A DNA stretch of 64,000 nucleotides from Thermococcus stetteri (GTDB lineage Archaea; Methanobacteriota_B; Thermococci; Thermococcales; Thermococcaceae): positions 310,001 through 374,000 of the forward strand of contig NZ_JAGGKB010000001.1 of the NCBI RefSeq assembly GCF_017873335.1, in the 5' to 3' direction. Positions within the stretch are counted from its first letter, which is position 1, and each line of letters opens with the position of its first letter. Below, piece after piece: positions 4,148 through 61,603 of the stretch. The notes under the pieces were generated by a model, which was not told the DNA's origin, ran no database searches, and saw only the letters and a program-made list of their open reading frames with translations. Position numbers and translations under genes: made by a program.

Positions 4148-5745
4148 CTAACGCCTCCTTCTCGCAACCAGGGGAGGGAGTGCAAAGAGAACAAATGCAG
4201 CCGGCCCGCAAGTTCCCTTCTTTCCCTTTTCAGTTATTCCAGTCGGCTTTTCTTGGGAGGAGGTGCTCGAAGAAGAACGGGAGGATACAGACGTTACCGT
4301 CACGGTTCCTGTGGTGGAGCCCTGGGTCGTAGTTGTTGTGAGCTGACCAGACGAAGTAGAGGTTGGGATTGTCGGGGAGCTCCCCTCTGAACAGGCTTTG
4401 CCGACGATGACGTTGATGTCCTCTGTGGAGACCTCAACGTTATTAAACTCATCTATCCTCGGCGTGTCGGTCTTCGGGGCGCCGAGGGTCTTGAAGGCGA
4501 GGTCGAGGGCTTTGACCTCAAGCTCCGGCCTGTCTGCAGTGCAGGCGAAGGGACGGATCCGTCCTTCCCAAGGGCGAGCGAGACGATTGCCCTCTTCTTG
4601 TAGACGTTCCTGAAGTAGAAGACGTGGACATAGTCCCCAACCGCAATTCCACCCAGCCTATCGTCCAGCAGTGAGTCCCCAAGGAGTGCCTGCCACTTCA
4701 GCTTCCCGCTTCCGTCAAAGGAGAGAACCCAGACGTGCCTGTTGTAGTCCTTCCCTTCTTGGAGGGTCGCCCCGGCGTAGCCGAGGACGTATATCGAGCC
4801 GCCGGAGACGAGCTGGACGAACTTCTCGCCGGAATTGGGGAACTTCTCAGCCCAGATCAGCTCCCCGTCCGTGGAGAGCGCTATGAGGAATGGCTCGTAG
4901 AGTTTGGGCTTTACCGCCCCAGTCAGGTACACTCTGTTCCCATCGCGGGCAAGATCTGTGAGGATGTAGTAGTATGTGGAAACGTCTACGCGGAGTCCCT
5001 TTATCACGTTCCCGTTTTCACTGATCTAGTAAAGGGTGAGCTTCTTCCAGGCGACAAGAAGGAGAACCTGCCCGTTTCCAAGGGGTTCAATGCCCACTGG
5101 TCTCATCGGCGGCGTGTAGGCTCCATAGACTCTCGCACACTCAAGCTTTCCGTCCGGAGAGAGCTTCATTAGAACCGACGCATCCCCTGAGGATGAGAAC
5201 CAGCCTATAGTCTCTGCCAGGACATAGATGCCATCTTCTGTAACGGCAGCGTCAACTGGGATCAGTTCTCTTGTCAGGTACTTGTCGTAGGTCTTCTTGT
5301 ACTGCCACGCCCTGTAGTATCTTGCCCACAGAACCTCTCCTCCAGGGGTTATTTTGAAGACAACGGTTCCGGAGAACGCTGTAGCATCTAAACGGCTCAC
5401 TCTGAAAAATCCAATAATATTCCCATCTAGGCACTTTCTGAGAATCAGACCGCTGTTTTTCAGGAGGGATTGTGGCTTCAGCTCCGTTCCGTTGACCTTG
5501 AACGTTAACTTCTTGACCCACACGAGATCGCCAGTTGAGGGGTCGAATGACATGACGTAGAAGAACTTTGATGAGAAACCCACATCATAGACACCGGGTA
5601 GGTAGATACCACCATCCGTAATTAGGGGGTGCCCAAGGTATACGAAATCGGAGTCCTGTATGTTATATGTTCTCGCCCATTCATCCGCTACAGCCAGTGG
5701 AGTGACCAGAAGGAGGAGAAACAGCCCAAAAATTGCACTCCTCAT
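4148..5745 (-). pseudogene. CGP-CTERM surface protein, interrupted by an in-frame TAG and a frameshift
   Basis: Three pieces form one protein of about 530 aa. Residues 1-20 are a signal peptide (MRSAIFGLFLLLLVTPLAVA). The body has repeated beta-strand blocks of the type GGIYLPG, VFKITPGGEVLWARYY, MKLSPDGKLECARVYG and LSFDGSGKLKWQALLG, suggesting a beta-propeller-like secreted domain. A Ser/Thr-rich stalk follows, then CGP, a hydrophobic stretch and a terminal RRRR: the CGP-CTERM sorting signal of Thermococcales. An in-frame TAG lies at 5028-5026. A one-base shift near 4559-4560 is repaired if CC is read as CCC on the plus strand; this restores the stalk and anchor exactly. A TATA-like box near 5780 and AAGGTG precede the ATG. 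Either a recent pseudogene or a sequence fault. Confidence 0.8.
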
Positions 5746-5911
5746 GCACAGTCACACCTTAATTAGGATAGTCCTCAGGCCTTAAATAGGTTGATTTAAA
5801 GGAGCATTTAATCGAGTAGAAAAACGAAGAGCCACTTAGAAAAAAACTCGAGATTAAGGAACAAAGCTATCAAATAGTTAGTCACGAAATGCCTATAAAC
5901 CCCAGCGATGA

Positions 5912-6907
<996 letters not shown>

Positions 6908-6951
6908 AGCTGTTCTCCCTCTTCTTTTCAGTTCAACGGTATGGCTTAAAA

Positions 6952-6972
6952 GGAGTATGCCTTTTATACTCC
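6952..6972. promoter_or_regulatory. Perfect inverted repeat in the nop5 promoter/leader
   Basis: GGAGTAT (6952-6958) and ATACTCC (6966-6972) form a perfect 7-bp inverted repeat around a 7-base loop. It directly follows a TATA-like GCTTAAAAG (6944-6952) and lies 25 bases before nop5. It could be a repressor site or an RNA hairpin at the 5' end of the nop5-flpA mRNA. Confidence 0.55.
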
Positions 6973-6997
6973 AGGCGACAAAACCCCAGAGGTGGTA

Positions 6998-8281
6998 ATG
7001 ATGAAAGCTTACATATCTGAGAACGTCAGAGGCATCTACGCCTTTGACGAGAGCGGGAAGCTCATAGGGAGCAAACCCTTCAGCGGGAAGCCCGAGGTGA
7101 GCCTCGACAGGCTCCTCAAAGGCGAGCCGAGCGACGAGCTCATAGAGTTCCTTGACGAGCTTGGAAACGAAGGCTACACCGAGTTCGTGGTCGAGGACTC
7201 CGAACTTAGCAGGAACCTCAAGGAGCTCGGCTACAACGCAACTGCCGAGTTCCCGAACATAGCCGGTGAAAAGCTCCGCTCAAGCCCTGAGGAGTTCCTG
7301 GGAGAGAACTGGTTCGATGAGTACTTCAGCGTTGGCGTTGCCTTGACCAGGCTCCGCATACAGGAGCAGAGCGGGGCAAGGGACAAGATGATCATCCAGG
7401 CCATTGAAGCCCTCGACGACATTGACAAGGTCATAAACCTCCTCGTTTCTCGCCTTAGGGAGTGGTACGGCCTCCACTTCCCGGAGCTCGATGAACTCCT
7501 TCCGAAGCACCCACAGTACGTTGCGTTCGTCAAGGAGATCGGCCCGAGAGAAAACGCCACCAGGGAGAGGCTTGAGAAGCTCGGCTTCTCCGAGGGTAAG
7601 ATGGAAAAAATCCTCGAAGCGGCCGAGAAGTCCATGGGCGCTCCGCTGGGCAAGTTCGACAGCGCTATAATCCAGAAGTTGGCCAGCGAGATAAGCGACC
7701 TCTACAAGCTGAGGGAGCAGATAGAGGACTACCTCGAAACTGCCATGGACGAAGTTGCTCCGAACCTCAAGGCTCTCGTCGGAGCGAAGCTTGCTGCCAG
7801 GCTCATGAGCCTCGCAGGTGGGTTGAAGGAGCTCGCAATGATGCCGGCCTCAACAATACAGGTTCTTGGCGCGGAAAAGGCGCTCTTCAGGCACCTCAGG
7901 AGCGGTGCCAAACCGCCCAAGCACGGTGTCATCTTCCAGTATCCAGCAATAAACCGCTCGCCGTGGTGGCAGAGGGGTAAGATAGCTCGCGCTCTGGCAG
8001 GAAAGCTCGCGATAGCTACCAGGGTGGACTACTTCTCCGGCGAATACATAGGTGAGGAGCTGAAGAAGGAGCTCGAGCAGAGGATTCAGGAAATCAAGGA
8101 GAAGTACCCGAACCCGCCGAAGAGGAAGGCCAGGCCCGAGAAGAAAAAGAAGGAAAAGAAGAAGTTCAAGGGCAAAGGCAAAGGAAAACCCGAGAAGGGC
8201 AAGGGCTTCGGCGGAAAGAGGGAAGGAGAGGGCAAGAAGGACAAGAAGAAAAAGAAGAAGGGTAAGGGCGGTAAGAGGTGA
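6998..8281 (+). CDS. nop5: C/D box RNP core protein Nop5 (Nop56/58)
   Basis: A 427-aa scaffold protein of the archaeal box C/D RNP. It binds L7Ae-RNA and fibrillarin, and two copies dimerise through a coiled coil. The N-terminal fibrillarin-binding domain (about 1-120), the coiled coil (about 130-240) and the NOP domain (about 250-365) are all present; the NOP block contains [20 protein letters not shown] and [19 protein letters not shown]. The last 60 residues are almost only Lys, Gly and Glu, an RNA-binding tail common in hyperthermophiles. ATG 6998 or 7001 both follow GGTGG. The flpA gene starts 5 bases after the stop, so both subunits are co-expressed. Confidence 0.97.
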
Positions 8282-8286
8282 TTGAT

Positions 8287-8967
8287 ATGAAGGTTAAGAA
8301 GCACAGGTTCCCTGGCGTTTACATCGTTATTGACGAGGACGGTAGCGAGAAGATAGCGACCAAGAATCTCGTCCCGGGTCAGAGGGTCTACGGCGAGAGG
8401 GTTATCAAGTTCGAGGGCGAGGAGTACAGGATATGGAACCCGACGAGATCCAAGCTCGGAGCGGCCATACTTAACGGCCTCAAGAACTTCCCGATAAAGC
8501 CAGGCTCAACGGTACTCTACCTCGGCGTCGCGAGCGGAACCACCGCTTCCCACGTCAGCGACATCGTTGGCTGGGAAGGCAAGGTCTTCGGCATCGAGTT
8601 CTCGCCGAGGGTTCTAAGGGAGCTCGTCCCGCTAGTCGAGGAGAGGCGGAACATCGTGCCCATCCTCGGTGATGCCACGAAGCCAGAAGGCTACCGCGCG
8701 CTCGTCCCGAAGGTGGACGTCATCTTCGAGGACGTTGCCCAGCCGACCCAGGCGAAAATCCTGATAGACAACGCCAAGGTTTACCTCAAGAGCGGCGGCT
8801 ACGGCATGATATCAGTTAAGAGCAGAAGCATAGACGTCACCAAGGAGCCGGAGCAGGTCTTCAAGGAAGTGGAAAAGGAGCTTTCAACGTACTTCGAGGT
8901 CGTCGAGAGGCTTTCGCTCGAGCCCTACGAGAAGGACCACGCGCTTTTCGTTGTCAGGAAGCCCTGA
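8287..8967 (+). CDS. flpA: Fibrillarin-like rRNA/tRNA 2'-O-methyltransferase
   Basis: A 226-aa S-adenosylmethionine-dependent methyltransferase, the catalytic subunit of box C/D RNPs. The SAM site is seen as [15 protein letters not shown], followed by the acidic residue in GIEFSPR and the [12 protein letters not shown] segment that lines the active site; Lys in [10 protein letters not shown] belongs to the K-D-K-H set. Archaeal fibrillarins lack the eukaryotic glycine-arginine domain, as here. The start is ATG 8287 because the RBS GGTGAT overlaps the nop5 stop codon and sits 4 bases upstream. At least two well-formed guide RNAs in this window are likely partners of this enzyme. Confidence 0.97.
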
Positions 8968-9012
8968 TTTCTCTTTTTTGGCTTTCTGTCTTCAAATAGG
9001 GGAGAAAAGTAC

Positions 9013-9681
9013 TCAGTCCCTTTTCGGCAGGTGTGGAACGAGCCAGCCCAGGAAGCTGTCCATGCTCCTCGTCTGGATGTAGAGCGTTCCAGTTCCGTAG
9101 AACTCCGCAACGAGCCCTTCTCCGCTGAAGAGAGTGCTCTTAAGCCTGCCGACGCGTCTCACGTTGAAGTCAAGTCCCTCGCTGAAGGCCACTATATGGC
9201 CGGTGTCTATAATAAAGCGCTCGTTGTGGAGCTCCTTCTTGTATATTGCGCCGAAGCTCGAGAGGAAGACGGTTCCCCTTCCAGTCATCTTGAGAAGGAA
9301 CAGCCCTTCCCTTCCAAAGAAGGTCTTGGCGCCGCCCCACTTCGTGTCGATGTCAACGTCCCCATAGCTCGCCAGGAAGGCACCGCTCTGGGCGTAGAGG
9401 GTGCCGTTCAGTTCAAAAGCCTCTACGTCGCCGGAATAAGCCGGGGCAAGACCGAGACTTCCTGGACCGTCCTCAGCCCGGAAGGTGTTTATGAAGAAAC
9501 TTTCACCTCCGAGCATTGAGCGCTTGAGTGCACTGAAAACACCGCCCCTAGCTTTGGTCTCAAGCTTTATCGTCGGACTCATGTGCACCATGGCACCGGC
9601 TTCCGCCTGTATCTCCTCACCGCGGTCGAGCTCAACCTCAAGGAGGGAAAAACTCGGCCTGTGCAGAATCTCATACCTCAC
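9013..9681 (-). CDS. AIM24/TIGR00266 family protein
   Basis: A 222-aa protein of the AIM24 (DUF124) family, built of repeated beta strands with glycine-rich turns. Family features are the early block EAGAMVHMSPTIKLETKARGG, later GLAPAYSGDVEAFELNG, and the central SGAFLASYGDVDIDTKW. Bacterial and archaeal members have no proven biochemical role; yeast AIM24 is mitochondrial. There are no signal peptide or membrane spans, so it should be cytosolic. The gene converges on flpA. A minus-strand TATATAAGG box lies near 9715-9723. The call rests on overall sequence resemblance. Confidence 0.85.
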   Translation of the reverse strand: MRYEILHRPSFSLLEVELDRGEEIQAEAGAMVHMSPTIKLETKARGGVFSALKRSMLGGESFFINTFRAEDGPGSLGLAPAYSGDVEAFELNGTLYAQSGAFLASYGDVDIDTKWGGAKTFFGREGLFLLKMTGRGTVFLSSFGAIYKKELHNERFIIDTGHIVAFSEGLDFNVRRVGRLKSTLFSGEGLVAEFYGTGTLYIQTRSMDSFLGWLVPHLPKRD

Positions 9682-9760
9682 CTAAAACACCTCAGTATCT
9701 CTTGACGGCGGTCCTTATATATCCTTCCTCGTCAATCGTCTAAAATCTCTTTTACTTTTA

Positions 9761-9777
9761 CCGAAAGACTTTTATAA
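9761..9777 (+). promoter_or_regulatory. Promoter of the HMG-CoA synthase operon
   Basis: CCGAAA (BRE, 9761-9766) followed by CTTTTATAAC (9769-9778) is a textbook Thermococcales promoter. The predicted start near 9800 gives a leader of about 35 bases with AAGGTGG before the ATG at 9837. Confidence 0.65.
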
Positions 9778-9836
9778 CTTCCCCCCAACCCCATGCGAAT
9801 TAAAATTAAGTTCAACACATTCTAAGGTGGTGCCCA

Positions 9837-10889
9837 ATGCGAAAACTCCTGAAGCCCAAGAGGGAGGTCGGCATTATCGGCTACGGCGCCTATGTGCCGA
9901 TGTATAGAATCAAGGCTGAAGAGATAGGGAGAGTCTGGGGAGTAAACAGCTTTCCAATCCAGGAGAAGTCCGTCCCCGGCCTCGATGAGGACACGATAAC
10001 CATCGGTATTGAAGCGGCGAGAAACGCCCTCAAGAGGGCTCAGATTGACCCCAAGCTCATCAGGGCCATCTGGCTCGGAACCGAGAGCAAGCCCTACGCG
10101 GTTAAGCCGAGCGGAACGGTCATAGCTGAAGCCATTGGTGCTACACCAGACCTTGACGCGGCAGACTTTGAGTTCGCCTGTAAGGCAGGAACAGAGGCCA
10201 TACAGGCCGCTATCGGGTTCGTCGGTTCCGAAATGGCCGACTACGCGATGGCCATAGGTGCCGACACTTCACAGGGAAGGCCAGGTGACCATCTCGAGTT
10301 CACGGCCGCGGCAGGAGGTGCCGCCTACATCCTCGCGCCGAAGAGCTCGGAAACCCTGGCTTACTTCGAGGCGAGCTATTCCTACGTCACAGACACCCCC
10401 GACTTCTGGAGGAGGCAGCACGAGCACTACCCGAGGCACGGGAACAGGTTCACCGGCGAACCCGCCTACTTCCACCAGATAATAAGCGCCGCCAAGACCC
10501 TCATGGAGGAGCTCGGCTACACCCCGAACGATTTCGACTACGCGGTCTTTCACCAGCCGAACGTCAAGTTCCCGCTCACCGCTGCCAAAATCCTTGGAAT
10601 CCCGAAGGAGAAGGTCCTCCCGGGACTCCTCAGCGGGATAATCGGCAACACATACAGCGGCGCTACCCTCGTGGGTGTATCGGCGGTTCTCGACATAGCC
10701 AAGCCCGGCGACAGGATTCTGTGGGTATCCTTCGGTTCAGGAGCTGGAAGCGACGCCTTCAGCCTCGTCGTCCAGGATGCAATAGAGGAGAAGGGGAACC
10801 TGGCTCCGAAGACGATGGACTACGTGAACAGGAAGAAGTACATAGACTACGCCCTCTACGCGAAGCATAGGGGCAAGTACATACTGTGA
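9837..10889 (+). CDS. Hydroxymethylglutaryl-CoA synthase, archaeal type
   Basis: A 350-aa thiolase-fold enzyme that condenses acetoacetyl-CoA with acetyl-CoA to HMG-CoA, the committed carbon input to archaeal isoprenoid lipids. The nucleophile is Cys115 in [10 protein letters not shown]; the conserved Glu is in [15 protein letters not shown] and a catalytic His in FHQPNVKFP. Length matches archaeal UPF0219/HMGCS proteins, which are shorter than eukaryotic ones. It is first in a tight three-gene operon with a thiolase and a DUF35 protein. In a methanogen these three proteins form one complex that channels acetoacetyl-CoA, so the same is expected here. AAGGTGG precedes the ATG. Confidence 0.95.
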
Positions 10890-10899
10890 GGTGGTTGGA

Positions 10900-12066
10900 A
10901 TGGAGAAGCCCGTCATAATTGGAGTTGGTATGGTTCCTGTTGGCGAGCACTGGAGGGTCTCACTCAGGGATATGGCCGTTGAGGCCCTCCTCAATGCGAT
11001 GGACGACGCTGGAATAGACAATGTTGACTCGCTCTACGTCGGGAACATGGCATCAGGCTCGTTCATCGAGCAGGAGAACCTGGGGGCACTCATAGCGGAC
11101 TGGGCCGGACTCGGAAACATCCCAGCAGTTAAGGTGGAGGCCGCCTGTGGAAGCGGCGGCGCGGCCGTTCAGGAAGGGGCCAAAGCCGTAATGGCCGGAC
11201 TGGAGGACGTGGTCGCGGTCGTTGGAGTTGAAAAGATGACCGATGCATGGCCGAGCGACGGAACGCGCTATTTGGCCTACGCGGCTGACGCCGAGTACGA
11301 GCTCTTCCACGGGGCTAGCTTCGTGGCACTTAACGCCCTCATCATGAGGCTCTACATGAAAACCTACGGCTACACCGAGGAGGACCTCGCCTACTTCGCC
11401 GTCAACGCCCACGCAAACGGTGCCAAGAACCCCTACGCTATGTTCAAGAGGCCGATAACGGTCGATACCGTCCTCAAGAGCCCCTACGTTGCAGACCCGC
11501 TCAAGCTCTTCGATGCCGCCCCCATGTGCGACGGTGCGGCGGCTGTGATAATAACCTCAAAGGAAAAGGCGAAGGAGCTCGGCGTCCCGAAGGACAAGAT
11601 GGTCGAGCTTGCCGGCTTCTGGAGGGCGATTGACACCATCAATCTCGCCAACAGGGAGGACTTCCTCACGCTCAAAGCGGCTAAGGTCGCCGCCGAGAAG
11701 GCCTACAAGATGGCCGGGGTAACTGCCAAGGACATCGACTTCTTCGAGGTTCACGATGCCTTTACGGTGATGGCAGCCCTCAGCCTCGAAGCTTTAGGGG
11801 CCGCGGAGAGAGGAAAGGGAGCCCTGCTCGCGAAGGAGGGCCAGATAGCAATAGACGGCGACTATCCAATACAGACTATGGGCGGCCTTAAGAGCAGAGG
11901 ACACCCCGTCGGAGCCACCGGCGTTTACCAGACGGTTGAGGCAGTCCTCCAGCTACGTGGAGAGGCGCCGGAAGGAATACAGGTTCCCGACGCTGAGGTC
12001 GGCCTGACCCAGAACATAGGTGGAACCGGTTCAAACATAACCGTCAACATCCTGAGGAGGGTCTGA
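10900..12066 (+). CDS. Acetyl-CoA C-acetyltransferase (archaeal thiolase)
   Basis: A 388-aa thiolase that makes acetoacetyl-CoA from two acetyl-CoA. The acyl-accepting Cys83 is in EAACGSGGAAV, and the C-terminal half has the SRGHPVGATG histidine motif and NIGGTGSNI. It belongs to the SCP2-like archaeal thiolase group. The reaction is unfavourable alone and is pulled by the HMG-CoA synthase encoded 10 bases upstream. ATG 10900 follows GAGGTGG. The next gene begins 1 base after the stop, which supports translational coupling and complex assembly. Confidence 0.94.
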   Translation: MEKPVIIGVGMVPVGEHWRVSLRDMAVEALLNAMDDAGIDNVDSLYVGNMASGSFIEQENLGALIADWAGLGNIPAVKVEAACGSGGAAVQEGAKAVMAGLEDVVAVVGVEKMTDAWPSDGTRYLAYAADAEYELFHGASFVALNALIMRLYMKTYGYTEEDLAYFAVNAHANGAKNPYAMFKRPITVDTVLKSPYVADPLKLFDAAPMCDGAAAVIITSKEKAKELGVPKDKMVELAGFWRAIDTINLANREDFLTLKAAKVAAEKAYKMAGVTAKDIDFFEVHDAFTVMAALSLEALGAAERGKGALLAKEGQIAIDGDYPIQTMGGLKSRGHPVGATGVYQTVEAVLQLRGEAPEGIQVPDAEVGLTQNIGGTGSNITVNILRRV

Positions 12067-37645: not shown

Positions 37646-39022
37646 TCAATCTTCCCTCGGCAAGCCAACGTTCTTCGCCTGCTGGACGAGGGCATAGGCT
37701 CCAGCGGCAACATCCTCGGGCCTCTCATAGCTCGGGATTCCGTTTGCCTCAAGAAGCTCCTTAGCCTTCTCACTGACGTATCCCGCCATGAAGAGGCCGA
37801 GGACGGGCTTGCCGTTGTTGACCTCTTTTACAGCTTTGATGACGCCCTCGGCGTGCTCAGTCGGCGTCATTCCCGCAAAGGTCGGGACGACGCAGATTGC
37901 TATCAGCATGTCAACGTTAGGATCTTCAAGCAGGAGCTTGGCAGTCCTGTAGTAGTCCTCTCCGCGGGCAGAGGCTATCATGTCCACCGGGTTCTTCACA
38001 GCCGCCATCGGCGGAAGGAAGGAGCGGAGCTCCTCGATGGTCTTCTCCTCAAGGTTGGCCAGCTTGAGGCCTTTCCTGTCTATGGCATCAGCGGTGAGAA
38101 CCCCTGGGCCGCCGGCGTTGGTCATTATGGCTACTCTCTTACCCTTTGGAAGCGGCTGGGTGAATGCCCTCGCCATGCTGAGCATGTCGTCAATTGTATC
38201 AGCCACCAAGACGCCGCTCTGCTTGAAGGCCGCCTCGTAGATCTTCCAGCTTCCTGCTAGAGAACCTGTGTGAGATGATGCCGCCCTCGCACCGCTCTCG
38301 CTCCTGCCAGCCTTTAGCGCTATGACGGGCTTCTTCTTTGTGACCCTCTTTGCAACGTCGATGAACTTCCTGCCGTCCTTGAGGCCCTCGATGTAGAGAG
38401 CTATGGCTTTGTCCTCTTCAGTATCAGCGAGGTACTCCATGAGCTCTGAGAAGTCCACATCGGCCATGTTCCCTATGCTGACGAACTTGGAGAAGCCTAT
38501 TCCCTCCTTAACGGTCTTGTAGACTATTCCAGCTCCGAGGGCACCGCTCTGGCTGATGAAGGCTATGCTTCCCTTCTTGGCGTCCATGATAAAGGTGGCG
38601 TTCATGTCGTTGTGGGTGTTCATCACTCCCACGCAGTTCGGTCCGATGAGCCTCATGCCGTACTTGTGGGCGATCTCAACTAATTCTCTCTCTTCCCTCT
38701 TGCCCTCCTCGCCGGTCTCGCCGAAGCCGGCAGTTATGATGACGGCGCCCTTAACGCCCTTCTCGCCGGCGTCTATTATCGCTTGCTTGACGAACCTCTT
38801 GGGCACGACGATGACCGCCATATCAACTTCTCCCGGGATGTCCTTGATGTTCTTGTAAGCCTTAACTCCCTGAACTTCCTCGTCCTTGACGTTGACCGGG
38901 TAAACCCTTCCGTCCCTGTACTTCTTGAGGTTCTTGAAGACCTCGTAGCCCAGCTTGAGCGGGTCGTTTGATGCCCCTATGACCGCTATCCCCTTCGGCT
39001 TGAAGAAGTAGTCAAAGTCCAT
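37646..39022 (-). CDS. ADP-forming acetyl/acyl-CoA synthetase, alpha subunit
   Basis: A 458-aa subunit with a CoA-binding domain (YFFKPKGIAVIGASNDPLKLG), a ligase-CoA domain, and the phosphorylated His in the segment SSHTGSLAGS. It converts acyl-CoA, ADP and phosphate to acid, CoA and ATP with a beta subunit that is not in this window. Its place directly upstream of iorAB on the same strand suggests that it prefers aryl-CoA such as phenylacetyl- or indoleacetyl-CoA, as described for the second isoform of Pyrococcus; this is inference from context. ATG 39022 follows GGTGA; a TATATA box lies near 39055. Confidence 0.94.
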   Translation of the reverse strand: MDFDYFFKPKGIAVIGASNDPLKLGYEVFKNLKKYRDGRVYPVNVKDEEVQGVKAYKNIKDIPGEVDMAVIVVPKRFVKQAIIDAGEKGVKGAVIITAGFGETGEEGKREERELVEIAHKYGMRLIGPNCVGVMNTHNDMNATFIMDAKKGSIAFISQSGALGAGIVYKTVKEGIGFSKFVSIGNMADVDFSELMEYLADTEEDKAIALYIEGLKDGRKFIDVAKRVTKKKPVIALKAGRSESGARAASSHTGSLAGSWKIYEAAFKQSGVLVADTIDDMLSMARAFTQPLPKGKRVAIMTNAGGPGVLTADAIDRKGLKLANLEEKTIEELRSFLPPMAAVKNPVDMIASARGEDYYRTAKLLLEDPNVDMLIAICVVPTFAGMTPTEHAEGVIKAVKEVNNGKPVLGLFMAGYVSEKAKELLEANGIPSYERPEDVAAGAYALVQQAKNVGLPRED

Positions 39023-39049
39023 GAGCTTCACCGTTTAAATCTCGGTCAG

Positions 39050-39064
39050 AGCGTATATAAGCTT
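39050..39064 (-). promoter_or_regulatory. Promoter of the ACD alpha / iorAB gene group
   Basis: On the minus strand GGGAAAGCTTATATACGC combines a BRE and a strong TATA box, about 30 bases before the predicted transcript start leading into the synthetase gene. Confidence 0.6.
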
Positions 39065-39148
39065 TCCCAAAACGGTCATCGGAGAATTTTTTGGCATTAT
39101 TGAGCTTAAAAATTCCTTCATGACCAAAGAGAACCATTCGACTTGCAC

Positions 39149-39691
39149 TCACAGGCCATAGCCCCATACAATCTGCGGCGGAAACTTTCCCCTCATGATC
39201 TTTTCGAGTAGTTCACGGGCAACACTGTACGCAAAGTCGAATGTTTTCCTATCAACCAGACCATGGAGAAGAGCCATCTCAAGCTCGTCTTCATCCAAGA
39301 GAAACGCCTTACCATCGGGAAACACGAATATGTCAAGGAATAAATCAAGCATTTCAATTGTATTCCCACGCCTCTTTGTATAGTCCAATACGTCTATGTA
39401 AAGCCCCTTGAAGTTCCCCTCATTGTCATACACTTTTAGCACATCGTAGTGCTCCCCGACAAAGGCGAAGTACACCATAGAGTAACCATTTTCAATAACC
39501 TCAACGCCGTTCACTGAGAGAGGGGCCAACATACCCTCGAACTTCGACTTTGCTACGACGATATTTCCAAGATCCTCAATAAGCTCGTCGTCCCTCTCAA
39601 TGACCCTGTTTGGGATGCGCCTGTAAATGAGATGGATTTTTCCGGGTATCACAGGGATTGGTTTTATTCCAGTGTTTTTAGCGGTTTCCAT
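39149..39691 (-). CDS. DUF402 domain protein
   Basis: A 180-aa protein with the DUF402 beta-barrel core, seen as YIDVLDYTKRRGNTIEMLDLFLDIFVFPDG followed by FLLDEDELEMAL (given here as adjoining motifs). DUF402 occurs in FAU-1-like RNA-binding nucleases and in nucleoside di/triphosphatases, where the acidic residues bind metal; which applies is not clear. The N-terminal 60 residues include IPVIPGKIHLIYRRIPNRVIERDD. ATG 39691 has no strong RBS. The gene lies alone between two promoters and is more AT-rich than its neighbours. Confidence 0.75.
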   Translation of the reverse strand: METAKNTGIKPIPVIPGKIHLIYRRIPNRVIERDDELIEDLGNIVVAKSKFEGMLAPLSVNGVEVIENGYSMVYFAFVGEHYDVLKVYDNEGNFKGLYIDVLDYTKRRGNTIEMLDLFLDIFVFPDGKAFLLDEDELEMALLHGLVDRKTFDFAYSVARELLEKIMRGKFPPQIVWGYGL

Positions 39692-39777
39692 AGAGCTACG
39701 TCCGCGGAAGAAGGGAATGTATGCTACCCGAAACCTTTAAGTAAGCTCCGGTTATTTTAACTCTGGAGGTGATGGCG

Positions 39778-40452
39778 ATGGTAAAGGTGAAGTTCCTGGG
39801 CCACGCTGCCTTTCTGATCGAGGGTAGCAAGAAGATACTCATAGACCCCTTCCTCAGCGGCAACCCTCAGACGGCCGTTAAGCCCGAGGAAGTCGAGGCA
39901 GACATAATCCTGGTAACCCACGCCCACGGCGACCACGTTGGGGACGCCATAGGGATAGCAAGGAGAAGCGGAGCGAAGATAGTTGCCATGTACGACGTTG
40001 CCAACTACATCTCCCAACAGGCGAGCGATGTAGAGACCGTTGGAATGAACTACGGACCAACAGAGATAGACGGAGTCTTCATCGTCCAGGTTCCGGCCTG
40101 GCACTCCAGTAGCGATGGGGTACACAGCATAGGCAACGCCTCAGGATTCATAGTGAAGCTCGACGGAGTTACCATCTACCACGCCGGAGACACATTCGTG
40201 TTCTCCGACATGGCGCTCTTCAACGAGCTCTACGGCCCGATTGACGTTGCCCTCCTCCCGATAGGCGGACACTTCACGATGGGGCCAAGGGAAGCCGCCA
40301 AAGCAGTCGAGCTCCTCAAGCCGAGGAAGGTTGTTCCGATGCACTACAACACCTGGCCGCCGATCGCCCAGGATCCCGAGGAGTTCAAGAAGCTCGTCGG
40401 TGACAAGGCCGAAGTTGTTATCCTCAAGCCCGGAGAAGAGCTTAAGCTTTGA
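39778..40452 (+). CDS. UPF0173 metal-dependent hydrolase
   Basis: A 224-aa metallo-beta-lactamase-fold hydrolase. Motif 1 is FLGHAAFLIEG, motif 2 the metal site THAHGDHVGDA, motif 3 VPAWHSS, motif 4 YHAGDTFVF and the last His is in VPMHYNTWPP. Family UPF0173 (YtkL-like) has no proven physiological substrate. ATG 39778 is chosen because GGAGGTGAT precedes it by 4 bases. A TATA-like CTTTAAG lies near 39736. Confidence 0.93.
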   Translation: MVKVKFLGHAAFLIEGSKKILIDPFLSGNPQTAVKPEEVEADIILVTHAHGDHVGDAIGIARRSGAKIVAMYDVANYISQQASDVETVGMNYGPTEIDGVFIVQVPAWHSSSDGVHSIGNASGFIVKLDGVTIYHAGDTFVFSDMALFNELYGPIDVALLPIGGHFTMGPREAAKAVELLKPRKVVPMHYNTWPPIAQDPEEFKKLVGDKAEVVILKPGEELKL

Positions 40453-40497
40453 AAAACCTTTTAAATTTCTCTTCTTAGCTTACTTTCAGGTGGTGGA

Positions 40498-41496
40498 ATG
40501 GACAGAAAAATCCCAGCAACAGCAGTGATCGTGCTTTTTGTCTTCCAGATGGTACTCCCCGCTGTAAGTGCCCAGAACAACGAGTACGACCTTATATTAG
40601 TCCGCAACGATGATCTCATTGACTATATAGTGGCGCTTCCCTATTCAAAGCATCTGGATGTCCCTATTCTCCCCGTAAACCCACAGGAGCTTGACCCCGC
40701 CACACTAGCCCAGCTTCAAAGCTATGAGCAGTTTGGCTGGTACCACGTCTTAGTCATAGGCGACTATCAGGCGATAAGCCAAAAAGTCCAGGAACAGCTG
40801 ATGAGCCTCGGCTTCCAGGTCACCAGGATAGGGGGTGCCACTAGGGTTGATACGGCCGCAAACCTGGCCAAGGAGTTTTATTCCCCAAAGGTTGACGCCG
40901 TGGTTCTTGCCAGTGCAAGCGACTATGGGTCCGCGCTCGCTGCCGCCAGGTGGGCTATGGCCTACAATCACCCCCTACTGTTGACCTCACCCTCAAACCT
41001 TTCAGCCTCCGTAAAATCTACACTGGAATACCTTCAGCCCCACATCATCATCCTCATCGGCGCAGGTATGTCAAAGAACATCGAGGATGAGCTGAACAGC
41101 CTCGGGTACACGACCCACTGGGTAAAGGAGAACCTGACCATATCCGTGCCAACATCAACAACGCCACAGGGCACCAACTGGAGCTATGTAATCGGAGCGG
41201 TCATAATAACACTAGCCATTGCAATTCCCACCTCGCTGTACTACGCTAAGAAGAAGTGGGCCGCCAACAGGGTTCCAATCGAAGTTCTAACAGAGAAGGA
41301 GCGTGCGGTGGTTAAGGCTATCCTTGAAAAGGGCGGAACCATAAAGCAGGAGGAGCTCCCCGAGCTCACTGGATATTCTCGCCCAACGATAAGCAGAATA
41401 ATCCAGGAGCTTGAGAAGAAACAGCTCGTCGAGCGCGAGAAAACGGGGAAGACCTTCATCGTGAAGCTAACAAAGGAAATCATTATGCGCGAGTGA
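40498..41496 (+). CDS. Membrane-anchored one-component regulator: CWB2 sensor, membrane span, winged HTH
   Basis: A 332-aa protein with an unusual order of parts. Residues 1-25 are a signal peptide; 28-210 resemble cell-wall-binding repeat 2 domains, with the repeat signature RIGGATRVDTAANLAKEFY and DAVVLASASDYGSALAAA; 212-228 is a Ser/Thr-rich stalk; 229-250 is a membrane span (VIGAVIITLAIAIPTSLYY); 260-332 is a winged helix (LTEKERAVVKAILEKGG and TGYSRPTISRIIQELEKKQLVEREK). The sensor would face outside and the DNA-binding part the cytoplasm. It probably senses an envelope or peptide signal, but the ligand and targets are unknown. AGGTGG precedes the ATG; a TATA-like CTTTTAAA lies near 40458. 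Confidence 0.82.
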   Translation: MDRKIPATAVIVLFVFQMVLPAVSAQNNEYDLILVRNDDLIDYIVALPYSKHLDVPILPVNPQELDPATLAQLQSYEQFGWYHVLVIGDYQAISQKVQEQLMSLGFQVTRIGGATRVDTAANLAKEFYSPKVDAVVLASASDYGSALAAARWAMAYNHPLLLTSPSNLSASVKSTLEYLQPHIIILIGAGMSKNIEDELNSLGYTTHWVKENLTISVPTSTTPQGTNWSYVIGAVIITLAIAIPTSLYYAKKKWAANRVPIEVLTEKERAVVKAILEKGGTIKQEELPELTGYSRPTISRIIQELEKKQLVEREKTGKTFIVKLTKEIIMRE

Positions 41497-41556
41497 GGGT
41501 CGGACAAGCCCTCCGTTCATCACTTTTCTCAGGGTCCTGGCTGTCTCCTCATCCCC
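41497..41556 (-). ncRNA. Box C/D-like guide sRNA (candidate 3)
   Basis: On the minus strand: box C ATGAGGA (41552-41546), 13-nt guide, D' CTGA (41532-41529), 5-nt spacer, C' GTGATGA (41523-41517), 13-nt guide, D-like CCGA (41503-41500). GGG before box C pairs with CCC after the D-like box. It fills the gap between the regulator gene and the zinc-finger gene and would be made as the 3' part of the zinc-finger transcript. The guide lengths (13 instead of 12) and CCGA lower certainty. Confidence 0.5.
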
Positions 41557-41576
41557 AAAAAAGAGGGAAAACCGAA

Positions 41577-41720
41577 TCACTTGCGGAAGAGATGGCCGTG
41601 GGCCTTGTTCACGTGCCTCGTGTACGCCTTGGCACTGCGGAAGACCATTCCACACCTCGGGCAGCGGAAGAGTATCTCCCCGTCCCTGTCCTCGATCTTG
41701 ATGGCCTTCAGCACCGCCAT
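41577..41720 (-). CDS. C2H2 zinc-finger microprotein
   Basis: A 47-aa protein consisting mainly of one classical C2H2 finger: [25 protein letters not shown] (Cys-x2-Cys-x12-His-x4-His). Such tiny fingers occur across Thermococcales, with presumed DNA or protein binding. It starts at ATG 41720 behind GGTGGAGGAG; a TATA box (AATTTAAAAG) lies near 41755. It was missed by length-based gene calling, and a longer overlapping frame on the same strand is a shadow. Confidence 0.88.
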
Positions 41721-41770
41721 CTCCTCCACCCCCGGCCATCCTTGGGGTTTGGGCTTTTAAATTTTGCTGG

Positions 41771-42580
41771 TTAGACCCATATCCGGTTCCCCTTGACTTT
41801 CAAGTATCCAAGTGTCTGGAGTGTTTTAAGGAAGTCCTCTATGGCGTCTTCATCGTAGTAAACGTTCACCCTATCCCCATCAGTTTCCACTGTTATAGGT
41901 TCTGCTTCCATAAGTGCCTCTATTAGTTCGTTCTTTTTCCTGTGTTTTTCTGCAAGCTCAAGGATCTTTTCGGCCAGAACAGAACGAGCTACCGCATCAA
42001 AAGTGGCCTCAACGATACTCTCCTCGGTTGCGTAATCTTTGGCTATTTCGAGTGCGTTCTCGAGGAGCTCTCTGTCAACTTCTAGCACCTCAACGTAGTA
42101 GTGCTTGGACAGTGTATACTCTGTTATGAGAGTGGTGCCCAAGTCTTCAATTTCCTCAAGCTCTTCTTCGACTTCTTCGATGGGGAACCTCAGCTCAAGC
42201 TCAAGGTTGTCAAGGGGCGGCTTCTCTCTCAGGATTAGAACCCCATCGTGCTCGTCGATTGCCCCTTCCTCAATCAGTGCTGTTATGAGGGACAGCTTCG
42301 AGAGGTCAGGCTCCTCAAAAAGTTCGCTTAGGGATCTTTCCTGGCCGACGTCCCATTCCCTCAGAAGCTCCTCATACGCTAGTTGTATTGCATCAAGTTC
42401 CTCACCCAAAACCGGTGCCTTGGGACTGAGCTCAACAAGCTTTGAGTACCTCCCCCTAACTACGAGATAGTGCTCGATCTCCGGTCTGGTCTCCTCAACA
42501 GGTCGGTTCATTATTCCAGCCCGACTGAGAGTTCTTGAAAGTTCGTTCATATCTTCACGGCTCAGTACTTCGAGCCTCAT
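41771..42580 (-). CDS. Hypothetical acidic protein
   Basis: I do not recognise the family. The 269-aa protein is very acidic, all soluble, and alternates helices and beta strands. A coiled-coil-like acidic stretch (IEEVEEELEEIEDLG) lies in the middle, and the C-terminal 40 residues (DRVNVYYDEDAIEDFLKTLQTLGYLKVKGNRIWV) look like a winged helix, so DNA or RNA binding is possible. ATG 42580 is preceded by GGTGGGA and overlaps the end of the upstream membrane protein gene by 26 bases, which indicates joint expression and perhaps a joint function at the membrane. Confidence 0.75.
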   Translation of the reverse strand: MRLEVLSREDMNELSRTLSRAGIMNRPVEETRPEIEHYLVVRGRYSKLVELSPKAPVLGEELDAIQLAYEELLREWDVGQERSLSELFEEPDLSKLSLITALIEEGAIDEHDGVLILREKPPLDNLELELRFPIEEVEEELEEIEDLGTTLITEYTLSKHYYVEVLEVDRELLENALEIAKDYATEESIVEATFDAVARSVLAEKILELAEKHRKKNELIEALMEAEPITVETDGDRVNVYYDEDAIEDFLKTLQTLGYLKVKGNRIWV

Positions 42581-43244
42581 AATTCCCACCCACGCTATCT
42601 CCTTCCAAATGATTATAACCTTTCCCCAAAAGAGTCTCGAGGAGTACCCTCACAGGTTTGTTTGTCAGCCTCTGAAGGACTTCCCTCACCTCGTTCTCCA
42701 GATCAGGTTGGTACCTCGCGTAAAGAAGGAGTGCATACGAAACCACCTTTGGGTCGCCTTCGTTTAGGGCCTCCATCGCAGAGGCGAGTACTGGGTCCTC
42801 AAGCAGTTTGTCCGCAAGCGCTTCAATCTTACTGGTATCGTTCGTCTGAACGGCCTCTTTAAAGGGCTTATAGAACCTTTCCAGGAGTGCCCTTGCCATC
42901 CTCTCCCTCTCAACAAAGTCTGCTTCGGGGTTTTCACTCGATGTGCCCCCCTTGGCAAGCAGGTAGTAGAGGGCTGGTATTGAAAAAAGAAGTGCGAGCA
43001 CAAAATAAAGCCCTACAGGAATGTGTATTATCCCGCCAACCCGCTTGGAGACTATCGAGAGAACAACTGCCCCAAGGAGTAACCATGCAACCATGAAAAG
43101 CATGTAATAAGCAGAGTAGTTCCTAACTTGAGGCCCCCTCGCCCTAACCCCGAGTTCCTCAATGTGTTTTATCCGCTCCTCGGATATCTCTATTATTGCG
43201 TTGAGCCTCTTTTCCCTTTTTTCTATTTCCCCAATGACATCCAT
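42555..43244 (-). CDS. Hypothetical protein with two membrane spans and soluble tail
   Basis: A 229-aa protein. A short coiled-coil N-terminus (EIEKREKRLNAIIEISEERIKHIEELG) precedes two membrane helices (about 47-67, MLFMVAWLLLGAVVLSIVS, and 75-95, VGLYFVLALLFSIPALYYLL), followed by a 130-residue soluble helical tail with HEAT-like pairs (SKIEALADKLLEDPVLASAMEALNE). It is the first gene of a two-gene unit with the acidic protein at 41771. No homologue comes to mind. Confidence 0.72.
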   Translation of the reverse strand: MDVIGEIEKREKRLNAIIEISEERIKHIEELGVRARGPQVRNYSAYYMLFMVAWLLLGAVVLSIVSKRVGGIIHIPVGLYFVLALLFSIPALYYLLAKGGTSSENPEADFVERERMARALLERFYKPFKEAVQTNDTSKIEALADKLLEDPVLASAMEALNEGDPKVVSYALLLYARYQPDLENEVREVLQRLTNKPVRVLLETLLGKGYNHLEGDSVGGNYEARSTEP

Positions 43245-43411
43245 ACCTAACCCTCAATGTGTTCGGCATAGAGGATTAATAACCTTCTGGTGCCTTCGAG
43301 CTCTCTTAAAACTGATATCCCGTTTTCTTGAATAAATTATACCAGGGCGTCGTATACAAGATGTGATTCACAGACCCGTTAGACAGGCAAAAAGAAAACA
43401 GGGGAAAGTAA

Positions 43412-44278
43412 CTACTGACCCTCTAGGAGCTTTCTGACATAGCGCGGCATCTGGAAGAGGGTCTCGTGTCTCTCGGGATCGTAGTAGTAGAGGTCGAGCT
43501 TCTTTGCCCTCTCAAGGTCTATCTCAGTGAAATCAACGTCGCCCTTGACTCCAACGAGGAAGCTCCACGGTGAGGCGTAGCCTATTACCGGGAAGCTGAA
43601 GTAGTACACCCTATCGAATACTTTTTTCATAGCCCTATACGCGTCGAGGAGCTCGTTCGTGAATAGGTAAACACTGCCGGCCTGGGTAATGTAGAGTCCT
43701 CTCTCGTTCAGCTTCTCGTAGGCATCTCTGTAAAACTCTTCGCTGAAGAGAAGCTTCGCGGGGCCAACCGGATCCGTCGAATCCACGATTATAACGTCAA
43801 AGCGTTCGTCCGTTTCCCTGAGGTACTTGACGCCGTCGCCGATTATCAGCTCGGCCCTCGGCTCTTCCTTCTTTATAAGCCTGTCTAAGAGGTCTTTAGC
43901 GACGTCCAGGTAGAGGTAAGAGGCCTCCACAACACCCTCGTCTATCTCCACCATTATCGCCTTCTCAACGGTATCGTGTCTCAAGACCTCACGGAGCGTC
44001 CCGCCGTCTCCACCGCCGATGACGAGGACCCTCCTGGGGTTCGGGTGCGCGAGCATCACTGGGTGAACGAGAACCTCGTGGTAGCTCTCCTCACCGACTT
44101 CGACGAGCTGAACGGTCCCGTCGAGAACGAGGAGCTTTCCAAAGCCCTCAGTCTCGTATATCTCAAGCCTCTGGTAATCCGTTTGGGTCTCAAACAGCCT
44201 CCTATTAACTTTGAAGCCGACTCCATAGCCACGAGGGTACCATTCGATGAAAGCCCTCTCCTGCTCGTTGTATCCCAT
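43412..44278 (-). CDS. speE: Polyamine aminopropyltransferase (spermidine/agmatine type)
   Basis: A 288-aa SpeE-family enzyme that moves an aminopropyl group from decarboxylated SAM to agmatine, cadaverine or putrescine; in Thermococcus agmatine is preferred. The dcSAM site is [16 protein letters not shown], the acidic residues are in [12 protein letters not shown] and GDGVKYLRE, and the catalytic Asp is in [15 protein letters not shown] 44278 follows GGTGGGAC. pdaD, which makes agmatine, lies 550 bases away on the same strand with one unknown gene between. Confidence 0.95.
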
Positions 44279-44368
44279 GAGTCCCACCATCAGTGAATAC
44301 GACGTTGGGTTTTAAAGCTTAGCGTGGGCGAGAGGTTTATTAAGGAGGCACAACCACTATGTTATACT

Positions 44369-44839
44369 ATGTGGCGAGAGGATATTGGAAAAATCGTTGC
44401 GGAAAAGGTTGTAGAGGTATGGAACGAGCTCCTAAACAGCGAGATAGTTGGTGTTCCTCACATTGTCGGCAGGATTTCTCCTGATGGCGACGTTGAACTG
44501 TCACTGGTGTTCTTTGAGGACTACACGTTTAACAGGATTATAGACGACGCTGCAGTTAGCTTTACGTTTCCAGTTGACGCCAGGGATCCAAAGGAACTAT
44601 TCGTGTCCCTTCTGAAGTTCATCCGGGATGGGACAACACCGATGCTTCTCGAACCCGGTGAAAAGATAAAGGAACCTCTGAAAGAAAACCTAGTGAGAAG
44701 GGGCTTCGAAGTTCTATGGATTGCAGGGGACAGTTATGTTGACGTATGGGTCTCTAAGAACGGGATAAGATACCACTTAAGCTTTGAGAGGACAGGAAAA
44801 GAGGAGTACACCTTGATAAGAAAAGAGAGAATTCAGTAG
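44369..44839 (+). CDS. Hypothetical protein between polyamine genes
   Basis: I do not recognise it. The 156-aa cytosolic protein has mixed helices and strands (IVAEKVVEVWNELLNSEIVGVP, then VELSLVFFEDYTFNRIIDDA) and no motif I can name. It lies between divergent speE and convergent pdaD and overlaps pdaD's end by 7 bases. ATG 44369 is chosen; GGAGG lies 20 bases upstream and a TTTATTAA element near 44335 could place the transcript start close to the ATG. A longer start at GTG 44324 is less likely. Confidence 0.65.
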   Translation: MWREDIGKIVAEKVVEVWNELLNSEIVGVPHIVGRISPDGDVELSLVFFEDYTFNRIIDDAAVSFTFPVDARDPKELFVSLLKFIRDGTTPMLLEPGEKIKEPLKENLVRRGFEVLWIAGDSYVDVWVSKNGIRYHLSFERTGKEEYTLIRKERIQ

Positions 44840-59434: not shown

Positions 59435-61603
59435 ATGAAGGTTGATGAGCTTCCCGTTGACGAGAGAATAAAGCGCGTTATCAAGAAGAGGGGTATTGAA
59501 GAGCTTTACCCACCCCAGGCAGAGGCGCTGAAGAGCGGCGTTCTTGAGGGGAAGAACCTCGTGTTAGCTATTCCAACTGCGAGCGGAAAGACCCTTGTGA
59601 GCGAGATCGTGATGGTTAACAAGCTTCTGAGCGAAGGCGGAAAGGCCGTCTACCTCGTTCCGCTCAAGGCCCTCGCCGAGGAGAAATACAGAGAGTTCAA
59701 GGAGTGGGAAGTCCTCGGCCTTAGAGTGGCGGCGACGACCGGAGACTATGATTCAACCGATGAATGGCTCGGAAGGTACGACATAATAGTGGCCACAGCC
59801 GAGAAGTTCGACTCCCTCCTGAGGCACGGGGCGAGCTGGATCAAGGACGTTAAGCTTGTCGTTGCTGATGAAGTTCACCTCATAGGCTCCTACGACAGGG
59901 GCGCGACGCTTGAGATGATACTCACCCACATGCTCGGGAAGGCCCAGATTTTGGCCTTAAGTGCTACCGTCGGGAATGCCGAAGAGCTCGCGGAGTGGCT
60001 GGACGCTTCTCTCGTTGTGAGCGACTGGCGCCCGGTGGAGCTGAGGAAGGGTATCTTCCACCTCGGCCAGCTCTTCTGGGAAGACGGTAAAATCGACCGC
60101 TACCCAGAGAACTGGGAGAGCCTTGCAGTTGACGCGGTTAAGAGGGGGAAGCAGGCCTTAGTTTTCGTCAACACGCGAAGGTCGGCCGAAAAGGAAGCGG
60201 TAAGTCTGTCGTCAAAGATAGGCAGGCTCCTAACAAAACCCGAGAAGAGGGCGCTTGAAGAGCTAATTGCATCCATAGAGGACAACCCAACCAATGAAAA
60301 GCTCAAGAGGGCGCTGAAAGGGGGAGTTGCCTTCCATCATGCTGGCCTGAGCAGGGCGGAGAGGACGCTGATAGAGGACGCCTTCAGAAACGGCTTGATA
60401 AAGGTGATAACGGCGACTCCGACACTTTCGGCCGGTGTGAATTTACCATCATTCAGAGTAATAATCCGCGACACCAAGAGATACGCCAACTTCGGCTGGA
60501 TCGACATTCCCGTCCTGGAGATACAGCAGATGATGGGCCGTGCTGGAAGGCCGAAGTACGACAAAGTGGGTGAAGCCATCATCGTCGCGAGAACCGAAGA
60601 CCCCAAGAAGCTGATCGACAAATACATCCACGGGAAGCCGGAGAAGCTGTTCTCGATGCTGGCCAACGAACAGGCCTTCAGGAGCCAGGTTCTGGCGCTG
60701 ATAACCAACTTCGGTGTCGAGGACTTCAGAGAGCTTGTGAACTTCCTCGCGAGAACCTTCTACGCCCACCAGAGGGGCGACACTTCATCGCTCGAGTACA
60801 AGGCCAAGGACATCGTCTACTTCCTCATCGAGAACGAGTTCATAGACATGGACGTGGAGAACCGCTTCATAGCCCTTCCCTTCGGAAGGAGAACTTCCCA
60901 GCTGTACATCGACCCGCTGACGGCTAAGAAGTTCCGGGATGCCTTCCCGGCCATCGAGAGGAACCCCAACCCCTTCGGAATCTTCCAGCTCCTCGCCTCG
61001 ACCCCGGATATGGCCACTCTGGCGGCCAGACGGAGGGAGATGGAGGATTACCTCGACCTGGCCTACGAAATGGAGGAGCATCTTTACTCGAATATCCCCT
61101 ACTACGAGGATTCCCGCTTCCAGGGCTTTCTGGGCCAAGTGAAGACTGCCAAAGTCCTCCTCGACTGGATAAACGAGGTTCCCGAGGCGAGAATCTACGA
61201 GACCTACAACATAGAACCCGGGGACCTCTACAGGATTCTCGAGCTCGCCGACTGGCTCCTCTATTCTCTCATCGAGATCTACAAGCTCTTCGAGCCAAAG
61301 GAAGACGTCCTCAACTACCTCCGCGACCTCCACCTCCGTCTGAGGCACGGCGTAAGGGAGGAGCTCCTCGAGCTGGTAAGGCTCCCGAACATAGGAAGGA
61401 AAAGGGCGAGGGCGCTCTACAACGCAGGCTTCAGGAGCGTTGAGGACATAGTGAGGGCCAAGCCGAAGGACCTCCTCCAGGTCGAGGGCATCGGCCTGAA
61501 GATCCTTGAGGGAATCTACAGGCACCTCGGCGTCGAGTACACGGTTCCCAAGGCGGACAAGCAAAAGAAGAAAAAGAACAGCCTATACGACTTCCTCAAA
61601 TAG
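59435..61603 (+). CDS. hel308: Hel308/Hjm ATP-dependent DNA helicase
   Basis: A 722-aa Ski2-like SF2 helicase that unwinds forks and lagging strands 3' to 5'. Motifs: Q-motif YPPQAEAL, Walker A AIPTASGKTL, Ia PLKALAEEK, DEVH box VADEVHLIG, III LSATVGN, IV VFVNTRRSA, VI QMMGRAGRPKYD. A winged helix, the ratchet domain and a helix-hairpin-helix end (LPNIGRKRARALYNAGF and VEGIGLKILEGIYRHLG) follow. The last residues KKNSLYDFLK resemble a PCNA-binding PIP box, matching reports of PCNA contact for Pyrococcus Hjm. GAGAGGAG precedes the ATG. Confidence 0.96.
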   Translation: MKVDELPVDERIKRVIKKRGIEELYPPQAEALKSGVLEGKNLVLAIPTASGKTLVSEIVMVNKLLSEGGKAVYLVPLKALAEEKYREFKEWEVLGLRVAATTGDYDSTDEWLGRYDIIVATAEKFDSLLRHGASWIKDVKLVVADEVHLIGSYDRGATLEMILTHMLGKAQILALSATVGNAEELAEWLDASLVVSDWRPVELRKGIFHLGQLFWEDGKIDRYPENWESLAVDAVKRGKQALVFVNTRRSAEKEAVSLSSKIGRLLTKPEKRALEELIASIEDNPTNEKLKRALKGGVAFHHAGLSRAERTLIEDAFRNGLIKVITATPTLSAGVNLPSFRVIIRDTKRYANFGWIDIPVLEIQQMMGRAGRPKYDKVGEAIIVARTEDPKKLIDKYIHGKPEKLFSMLANEQAFRSQVLALITNFGVEDFRELVNFLARTFYAHQRGDTSSLEYKAKDIVYFLIENEFIDMDVENRFIALPFGRRTSQLYIDPLTAKKFRDAFPAIERNPNPFGIFQLLASTPDMATLAARRREMEDYLDLAYEMEEHLYSNIPYYEDSRFQGFLGQVKTAKVLLDWINEVPEARIYETYNIEPGDLYRILELADWLLYSLIEIYKLFEPKEDVLNYLRDLHLRLRHGVREELLELVRLPNIGRKRARALYNAGFRSVEDIVRAKPKDLLQVEGIGLKILEGIYRHLGVEYTVPKADKQKKKKNSLYDFLK

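Follow-up and report, generated by a model that had tools for sequence, protein, structure and literature searches.

The window, a 64,000-nucleotide stretch of the Thermococcus stetteri genome, contains a forward-strand open reading frame, located by an open-reading-frame check, that starts with ATG and encodes a protein of 332 amino acids, referred to here as the regulator. The 2.03-Mb assembly of the source genome holds one copy of the gene. Its upstream neighbour is a metal-dependent hydrolase gene (39769-40452), which we take to be UPF0173, and the stop codon of that gene lies 45 bases before the regulator start. Ahead of the start are a ribosome-binding-site-like sequence and a TATA/BRE-like promoter, the latter assigned on its presumed fit to the archaeal consensus (Table 1). 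Of 30 same-genus orthologues (L001-L030, counting the one in the window), 27 have the promoter core, AAAAACCTTTTAA, ahead of the gene, and the remaining three have one extra T in it.

Table 1 Features of the regulator gene and its upstream region, with positions in the window.
Feature	Position	Strand	Residues	Remarks
TATA/BRE-like promoter	40452..40468	+		AAAAACCTTTTAAATTT; begins on the final base of the preceding gene's stop codon
Ribosome-binding-site-like sequence	40489..40496	+		GGTGGTGG; by eye
Whole gene	40498..41496	+	332 aa	stop codon within range
Signal peptide	40498..40572	+	1-25	ends ...AVSA, followed by Q; hydrophobic 5-23; cleavage site inferred by eye
Outside CWB2 module	40582..41142	+	29-215	about 1.75 CWB2 motifs
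Linker (first-pass Ser/Thr stalk)	41134..41181	+	213-228	
Membrane span	41182..41238	+	229-247	inside modelled helix 228-256; followed by KKKWAANR
MarR-type/DUF7343 winged helix	41272..41493	+	259-332	predicted cytoplasmic
Putative recognition helix	41380..41418	+	295-307	within SRPTISRIIQELEKK (294-308); role inferred

An imperfect 11-nt inverted repeat (40443-40453 and 40472-40482, 82%) flanks the TATA-like box on both sides and is possibly an autoregulatory site or a chance occurrence. We do not claim it as an operator, as its left arm falls mostly within the end of the preceding coding sequence and its right arm was not seen, by eye, in many relatives; no inverted-repeat operator was found in the divergent gap of the Hydrothermarchaeum locus described below. 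A search with Rfam at gathering scores over 38000-44500 returned no RNA element. On the other side of the gene lies a convergent 47-aa open reading frame (41577-41720, reverse strand) with a C2H2-like zinc-finger pattern, noted by eye.

The protein is predicted to comprise, in order, a signal peptide, a CWB2 module, a short linker, a single membrane span and a C-terminal winged helix. Pfam profiles identified CWB2 (PF04122) with 64.3 bits against a cut-off of 24.9 (E 1.5e-17) and DUF7343 at residues 264-324 with 42 bits against a cut-off of 27.6 (E 8e-11); MarR families likewise exceeded their cut-offs at the C-terminus, and no NCBIfam profile did so for the protein. Searching the outside part against the PDB with phmmer yielded Clostridioides difficile Cwp6 (E 2.4e-20), Cwp8 and S-layer proteins. 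Kinship with the CARF regulator Csa3/CasR was considered and discarded: the best-matching stretches fall in residues 232-327, the winged-helix region, and residues 29-215 match CWB2, not CARF. The first-pass annotation had described much the same layout, and profiles, structural model and fold comparison agree with it on the signal peptide, CWB2, single span and winged helix. Its Ser/Thr stalk, by contrast, shrinks to a 16-residue linker, LTISVPTSTTPQGTNW, that contains 7 S/T and is not conserved as such; the S/T content of the linkers averages 17-18% across the alignments. That annotation had staked its reading on the CWB2 similarity withstanding a profile search, and the similarity did so here, in the fold match (below) and in 47 of 49 aligned proteins.

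Two alignments were used. A1 has 33 rows including the window protein, 22 from Thermococcaceae and 11 from other families. A2 has 49 rows, the window protein plus 48 of the 66 loci from a genome scan, after leaving out three bacterial hits, seven fragments or split genes and eight proteins judged by eye to be near-duplicates of retained rows. At E <= 1e-3, CWB2 was detected in 47/49 A2 proteins and DUF7343 in all 49. Residues S294, R295 and P296, in the segment that holds the putative recognition helix, are invariant throughout A2.

Only two segments of the window protein exceed the hydropathy threshold, 5-23 and 229-247. By the same measure, a span precedes the winged helix in 49/49 A2 proteins, and an N-terminal hydrophobic segment is present in 48/49; it is absent in L107, where the start codon is perhaps mis-set. 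The 12 residues after the span of the window protein include 4 K/R, against none in the 12 before it. At least two K/R occur within 12 residues past the span in all 49 proteins, although in some distant rows (e.g. L093, L095 and L096) the K/R before the span equal or outnumber those after. The window protein thus shows a clear charge bias, which not all homologues share. On these features the winged helix is predicted to be cytoplasmic and the CWB2 module to lie outside the cell.

An AlphaFold2 model built from A2 had a mean pLDDT of 90.4 and a pTM of 0.65, a value at which the placement of the domains relative to each other is not reliable. In the model, residues 29-215 (27-215 in one comparison) adopt the CWB2 fold, an alpha/beta module, and superimpose in VIA on eight CWB2 entries with Z 15.7-18.1 and an rmsd of 2.1-2.5 over 179-183 residues; Foldseek returned the same fold (E 1.5e-8). 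Residues 259-332 match winged helices, mostly of MarR-type proteins, with Z 10.3-11.4. The outside part has the fold of C. difficile Cwp6, Cwp8 and SlpA and sites that resemble their PILL motif, and the number of motifs is where they part: these wall-anchored proteins have three CWB2 motifs, the window protein about 1.75. From the phmmer alignments and the model, the second motif is full (about 107-209, with R110, R116 and T119), whereas the first (32-103) is without the RxxGxxRxxT helix. The first-pass annotation's “CWB2-like repeats” hold as to similarity, with the correction that they amount to about 1.75 motifs. PILL-type sites occur as PILP at residues 56-59 and PLLL at 159-162; the latter fits the pattern P[ILV][ILV][LV] and the former deviates at the fourth residue. 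Under relaxed patterns the two sites are found in 45/49 and 41/49 A2 rows, respectively. D31, R36, D38, R110 and R116 are invariant in 33/33 A1 rows, and D38, R110 and R116 in 49/49 A2 rows.

In C. difficile, three CWB2 motifs build an intertwined pseudo-threefold prism (PMC8881574) and all three are required, such that loss of any one, or a PILL to AAAA substitution in one motif, abolishes anchoring (PMC4973711). With about 1.75 motifs against the three needed there, classical wall anchoring by a single chain is unlikely. Against the sensor reading too, a module with so few motifs may lack binding of this type altogether, and archaea are not known to make PSII, the polymer bound by the wall-anchored proteins of C. 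difficile.

We consider it likely that the protein is a one-component transmembrane regulator of type I topology, whose CWB2 module, having fewer than three motifs, serves as a sensor rather than a wall anchor, and through which a change at the surface alters the expression of unlinked genes. The protein probably lets cell-surface conditions switch genes directly. The signal peptide would export the chain until the single span stops transfer, placing the CWB2 module outside, presumably beneath the S-layer, and the MarR-type winged helix inside. The module would act as an interaction or glycan-binding sensor for a surface partner, and together with the span may decide whether two winged helices pair on an operator, so that a surface change would alter transcription of unlinked genes, most likely those for surface proteins. 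Coupling through one span would most simply proceed by oligomer state, as has been proposed for ToxR/CadC-type proteins. MarR-type winged helices bind DNA as dimers, and no cytoplasmic dimer element other than the winged helix was seen in this protein. To our knowledge, it is largely open how archaea monitor the condition of their protein coat, and this one gene, deeply conserved and pairing an outside S-layer-type domain with an inside DNA-binding domain, offers a direct, genetically testable candidate. If correct, the CWB2 fold, best known as a Clostridium wall anchor, would here be the input domain of a gene regulator.

The module could instead have been re-used as a binding protein for a small extracellular ligand such as a sugar, metal or peptide, with no surface structure being sensed. 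The alpha/beta fold, the five residues invariant in A1 and a motif number below that needed for anchoring in C. difficile (PMC4973711) are all consistent with this. Against it, CWB2 proteins lead the fold matches clearly, with solute-binding proteins far lower (E about 4e-3, TM 0.18-0.19), and the PILL-type sites are mostly kept. Both observations would be compatible with a small ligand, and we regard this reading as rather unlikely.

The span bears on another possibility, namely that the protein is a membrane-held precursor and that a surface signal leads to a cut in or near the span, freeing the winged helix as a soluble regulator. The architecture is compatible with regulated proteolysis of this kind, and a proline in the span, P244, present in 22/22 Thermococcaceae rows of A1, could loosen the helix. 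However, this proline is missing in 11/11 A1 rows from other families, the modelled helix 228-256 continues unbroken through the span, and archaeal transmembrane transcription regulators (TTRs) are described as acting from the membrane (PMC10269533). Release by proteolysis thus seems improbable, and we favour a regulator that works as a one-component protein in the membrane.

The architecture is widely conserved. By hand count, 79/94 Thermococcaceae genomes contain a match at E <= 1e-90; the remainder comprise one fragment (G062), ten genomes without a match and four with short or weak matches. Near-full-length homologues with 33-37% identity are present in 18 of the 21 genomes from four other families, the rest (G100, G106 and G107) having only partial, split or winged-helix-only matches. 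A scan of named genomes added records from Methanofastidiosia, Theionarchaea, Hydrothermarchaeota, Pyrohabitans, Naiadarchaeum, Methanodesulfokora and others. Eleven distant genomes, chosen because an earlier scan had given a hit, have one full-length copy each, and ten of them have extra partial matches to the CWB2 or winged-helix parts. The survey across Thermococcales proposed in the first-pass annotation thus finds the whole layout kept there and beyond. A bacterial origin of the fusion was considered and dropped, as the three bacterial hits combine a Fic domain and a winged helix.

Median identity to the window protein is 79% for the winged helix and 52% for the sensor among the 32 other rows of A1, and 53% and 33%, respectively, among the 48 other rows of A2. 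The helix region 292-308 is especially well conserved in A1 (median 91%). Better preservation of the winged helix than of the sensor is as expected for a shared DNA target. Gene context is less constant: neighbours include the metal-dependent hydrolase, elongation factor 1-beta, ribosomal protein S6e and tRNA genes. We looked for a target among operon partners and neighbours and rejected this route for all lineages other than Hydrothermarchaeum, since the neighbours change from lineage to lineage and include housekeeping genes, so that context points to no target in them. In L117, L119 and L121 (Thermoproteota/Methanodesulfokora) the homologue begins right after tRNA-Ala and tRNA-Ile genes.

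This variable context, from which no regulon is apparent, would suit a protein whose winged helix is no longer regulatory and which is mainly a surface protein that holds the chromosome, or some partner, at the membrane. Since conservation is higher in the winged helix than in the sensor, above all at 292-308 in A1, a pattern typical of specific DNA recognition, we judge such a role very unlikely. A false fusion, in which misassembly or read-through merges a CWB2 protein with an independent regulator gene, has nothing in its favour except the unusual pairing and is refuted by the same fusion in 79/94 family genomes and in distant archaea.

The favoured reading, a transmembrane one-component regulator, invites comparison with the bacterial ToxR/CadC family, to which the first-pass annotation had likened it. 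The plan is shared, with a single protein, a sensor outside, a winged helix inside and no kinase, and the likeness is fair as a working analogy. It does not extend to membership: ToxR/CadC proteins are of type II topology and carry an N-terminal winged helix of the OmpR type, whereas the winged helix here is of the DUF7343/MarR type, lies at 259-332 and follows an N-terminal hydrophobic segment read as a signal peptide. By domain content the protein is a predicted TTR, a class that likewise combines a DNA-binding domain and a membrane span in one chain. The cytoplasmic side expected for its DNA-binding domain is predicted here from the K/R past the span in 49/49 proteins. The survey by Demey et al. 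2023 names Thermococci among the groups enriched in TTRs (PMC10269533). With a second such protein in the source genome (L130), membrane-bound regulators are not unusual in this group, which qualifies the earlier remark that the layout is not that of the usual soluble archaeal regulator. ArnR and ArnR1 of Sulfolobus are likewise archaeal membrane-bound one-component regulators, and theirs is a role in controlling surface structures; they differ in having an N-terminal HTH, a putative HAMP and two C-terminal spans, with CWB2 not mentioned in the accessible part of the source (PMC6396743).

Several related proteins (L054, L055, L057, L060-L062 and L130) follow the same plan of signal peptide, outside domain and span by eye, with DUF7343 identified by profile, and L056 also does so, with another outside domain, from its sequence by eye. 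Their outside domains are not CWB2. L057 has DUF7345 (DUF7345-DUF7343), DUF3857 falls just under the cut-off in L061, and a profile scan gave nothing above cut-off for the outside domains of L054, L055, L060, L062 and L130. The source-genome protein L130 (contig C4, 1492-2508, reverse strand) has a signal peptide, a different outside domain, a span and, ahead of it, an extended stretch that is a true Ser/Thr stalk, all by eye, and a DUF7343 winged helix by profile. Membrane-bound regulators as such are already known. “CWB2” has 0 occurrences in the main text of the TTR survey (PMC10269533), and we found no description of a CWB2 sensor on a membrane-bound regulator among the titles and abstract openings of the literature searched, which covered hit lists in part and few subscription papers.

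At one locus the regulator adjoins a surface-protein gene. In Candidatus Hydrothermarchaeum profundi (L132) the regulator (5221-6150, reverse strand) is divergent from a forward-strand gene (6251-11518), with 100 bases between them, that encodes a protein of 1,756 aa, in which NosD/beta-helix and Ig-like domains are combined with a CWB2 module at the C-terminus. No second CWB2 gene was seen beside a full-length regulator in the other loci scanned, with flanks mostly of 1.5-5 kb and some ended by the contig. At L133 (572-3830, reverse strand) a CWB2 protein adjoins two winged-helix proteins with another outside domain.

Thermococcaceae also encode a family of apparently secreted CWB2 proteins (L058:2404-3633, L059:2347-3612, L210 and L211), in which a charged region of helical appearance comes after the CWB2 module; secretion was judged by eye from the N-termini, and L058 and L059 were confirmed to lack a winged helix. 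Relatives of L058 are present in 74/94 family genomes at E <= 1e-15, mostly as frames of about 355-440 aa. In the source genome, the regulator is the only CWB2 protein. In two genomes of genus g3, presumably Pyrococcus, two secreted CWB2 copies lie near the hydrolase gene that adjoins the regulator in the window. The sensor could be pictured as an incomplete CWB2 prism, to be completed when a partner, such as a secreted CWB2 surface protein, a second regulator chain or an S-layer component, supplies a CWB2 motif. Occupancy of the prism would then report coat assembly to the genome through the one span, and the regulator would form, with the secreted proteins, one ancient archaeal coat-sensing system. 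We offer this as a speculative and, on balance, improbable elaboration.

In hand-read sets from 93 genomes (G062, a 73%-complete genome with a partial hit, was left out), 72 had both the regulator and a secreted CWB2 protein, 7 the regulator only, 2 the secreted protein only and 12 neither (Fisher 9e-9). Genomes without the regulator are thus mostly without secreted CWB2 too (12/14). The two with a secreted protein and no full-length regulator (G076 and G082) and the seven regulator-only genomes, the window's own included, argue against a fixed partnership. The L060-type regulator, which has a different sensor and served as a control, was also associated, both with the regulator (54/25/2/12, p 2e-4) and with the secreted CWB2 proteins (p 3.5e-8), so the raw joint-absence association is inflated by clade structure. 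Among 27 same-genus genomes without the control gene the association persists (9/6/0/12, p 0.001 with no correction for phylogeny). This shared absence and the Hydrothermarchaeum divergent gene, a single case, hint at control of surface genes.

On a Hel308 tree of 60/94 genomes, 11 regulator-lacking tips required 11 parsimony steps. Regulator-lacking tips were scattered too in a three-gene tree of 17 genomes, which disagrees with the Hel308 tree in places, and five regulator-lacking genomes have one replaced flank in common; the trees therefore do not fix the number of independent losses. The Hel308-type helicase gene of the window (59435-61603) has no insert, and in several relatives this gene carries about 400 extra residues in frame near residue 332, intein-like in appearance.
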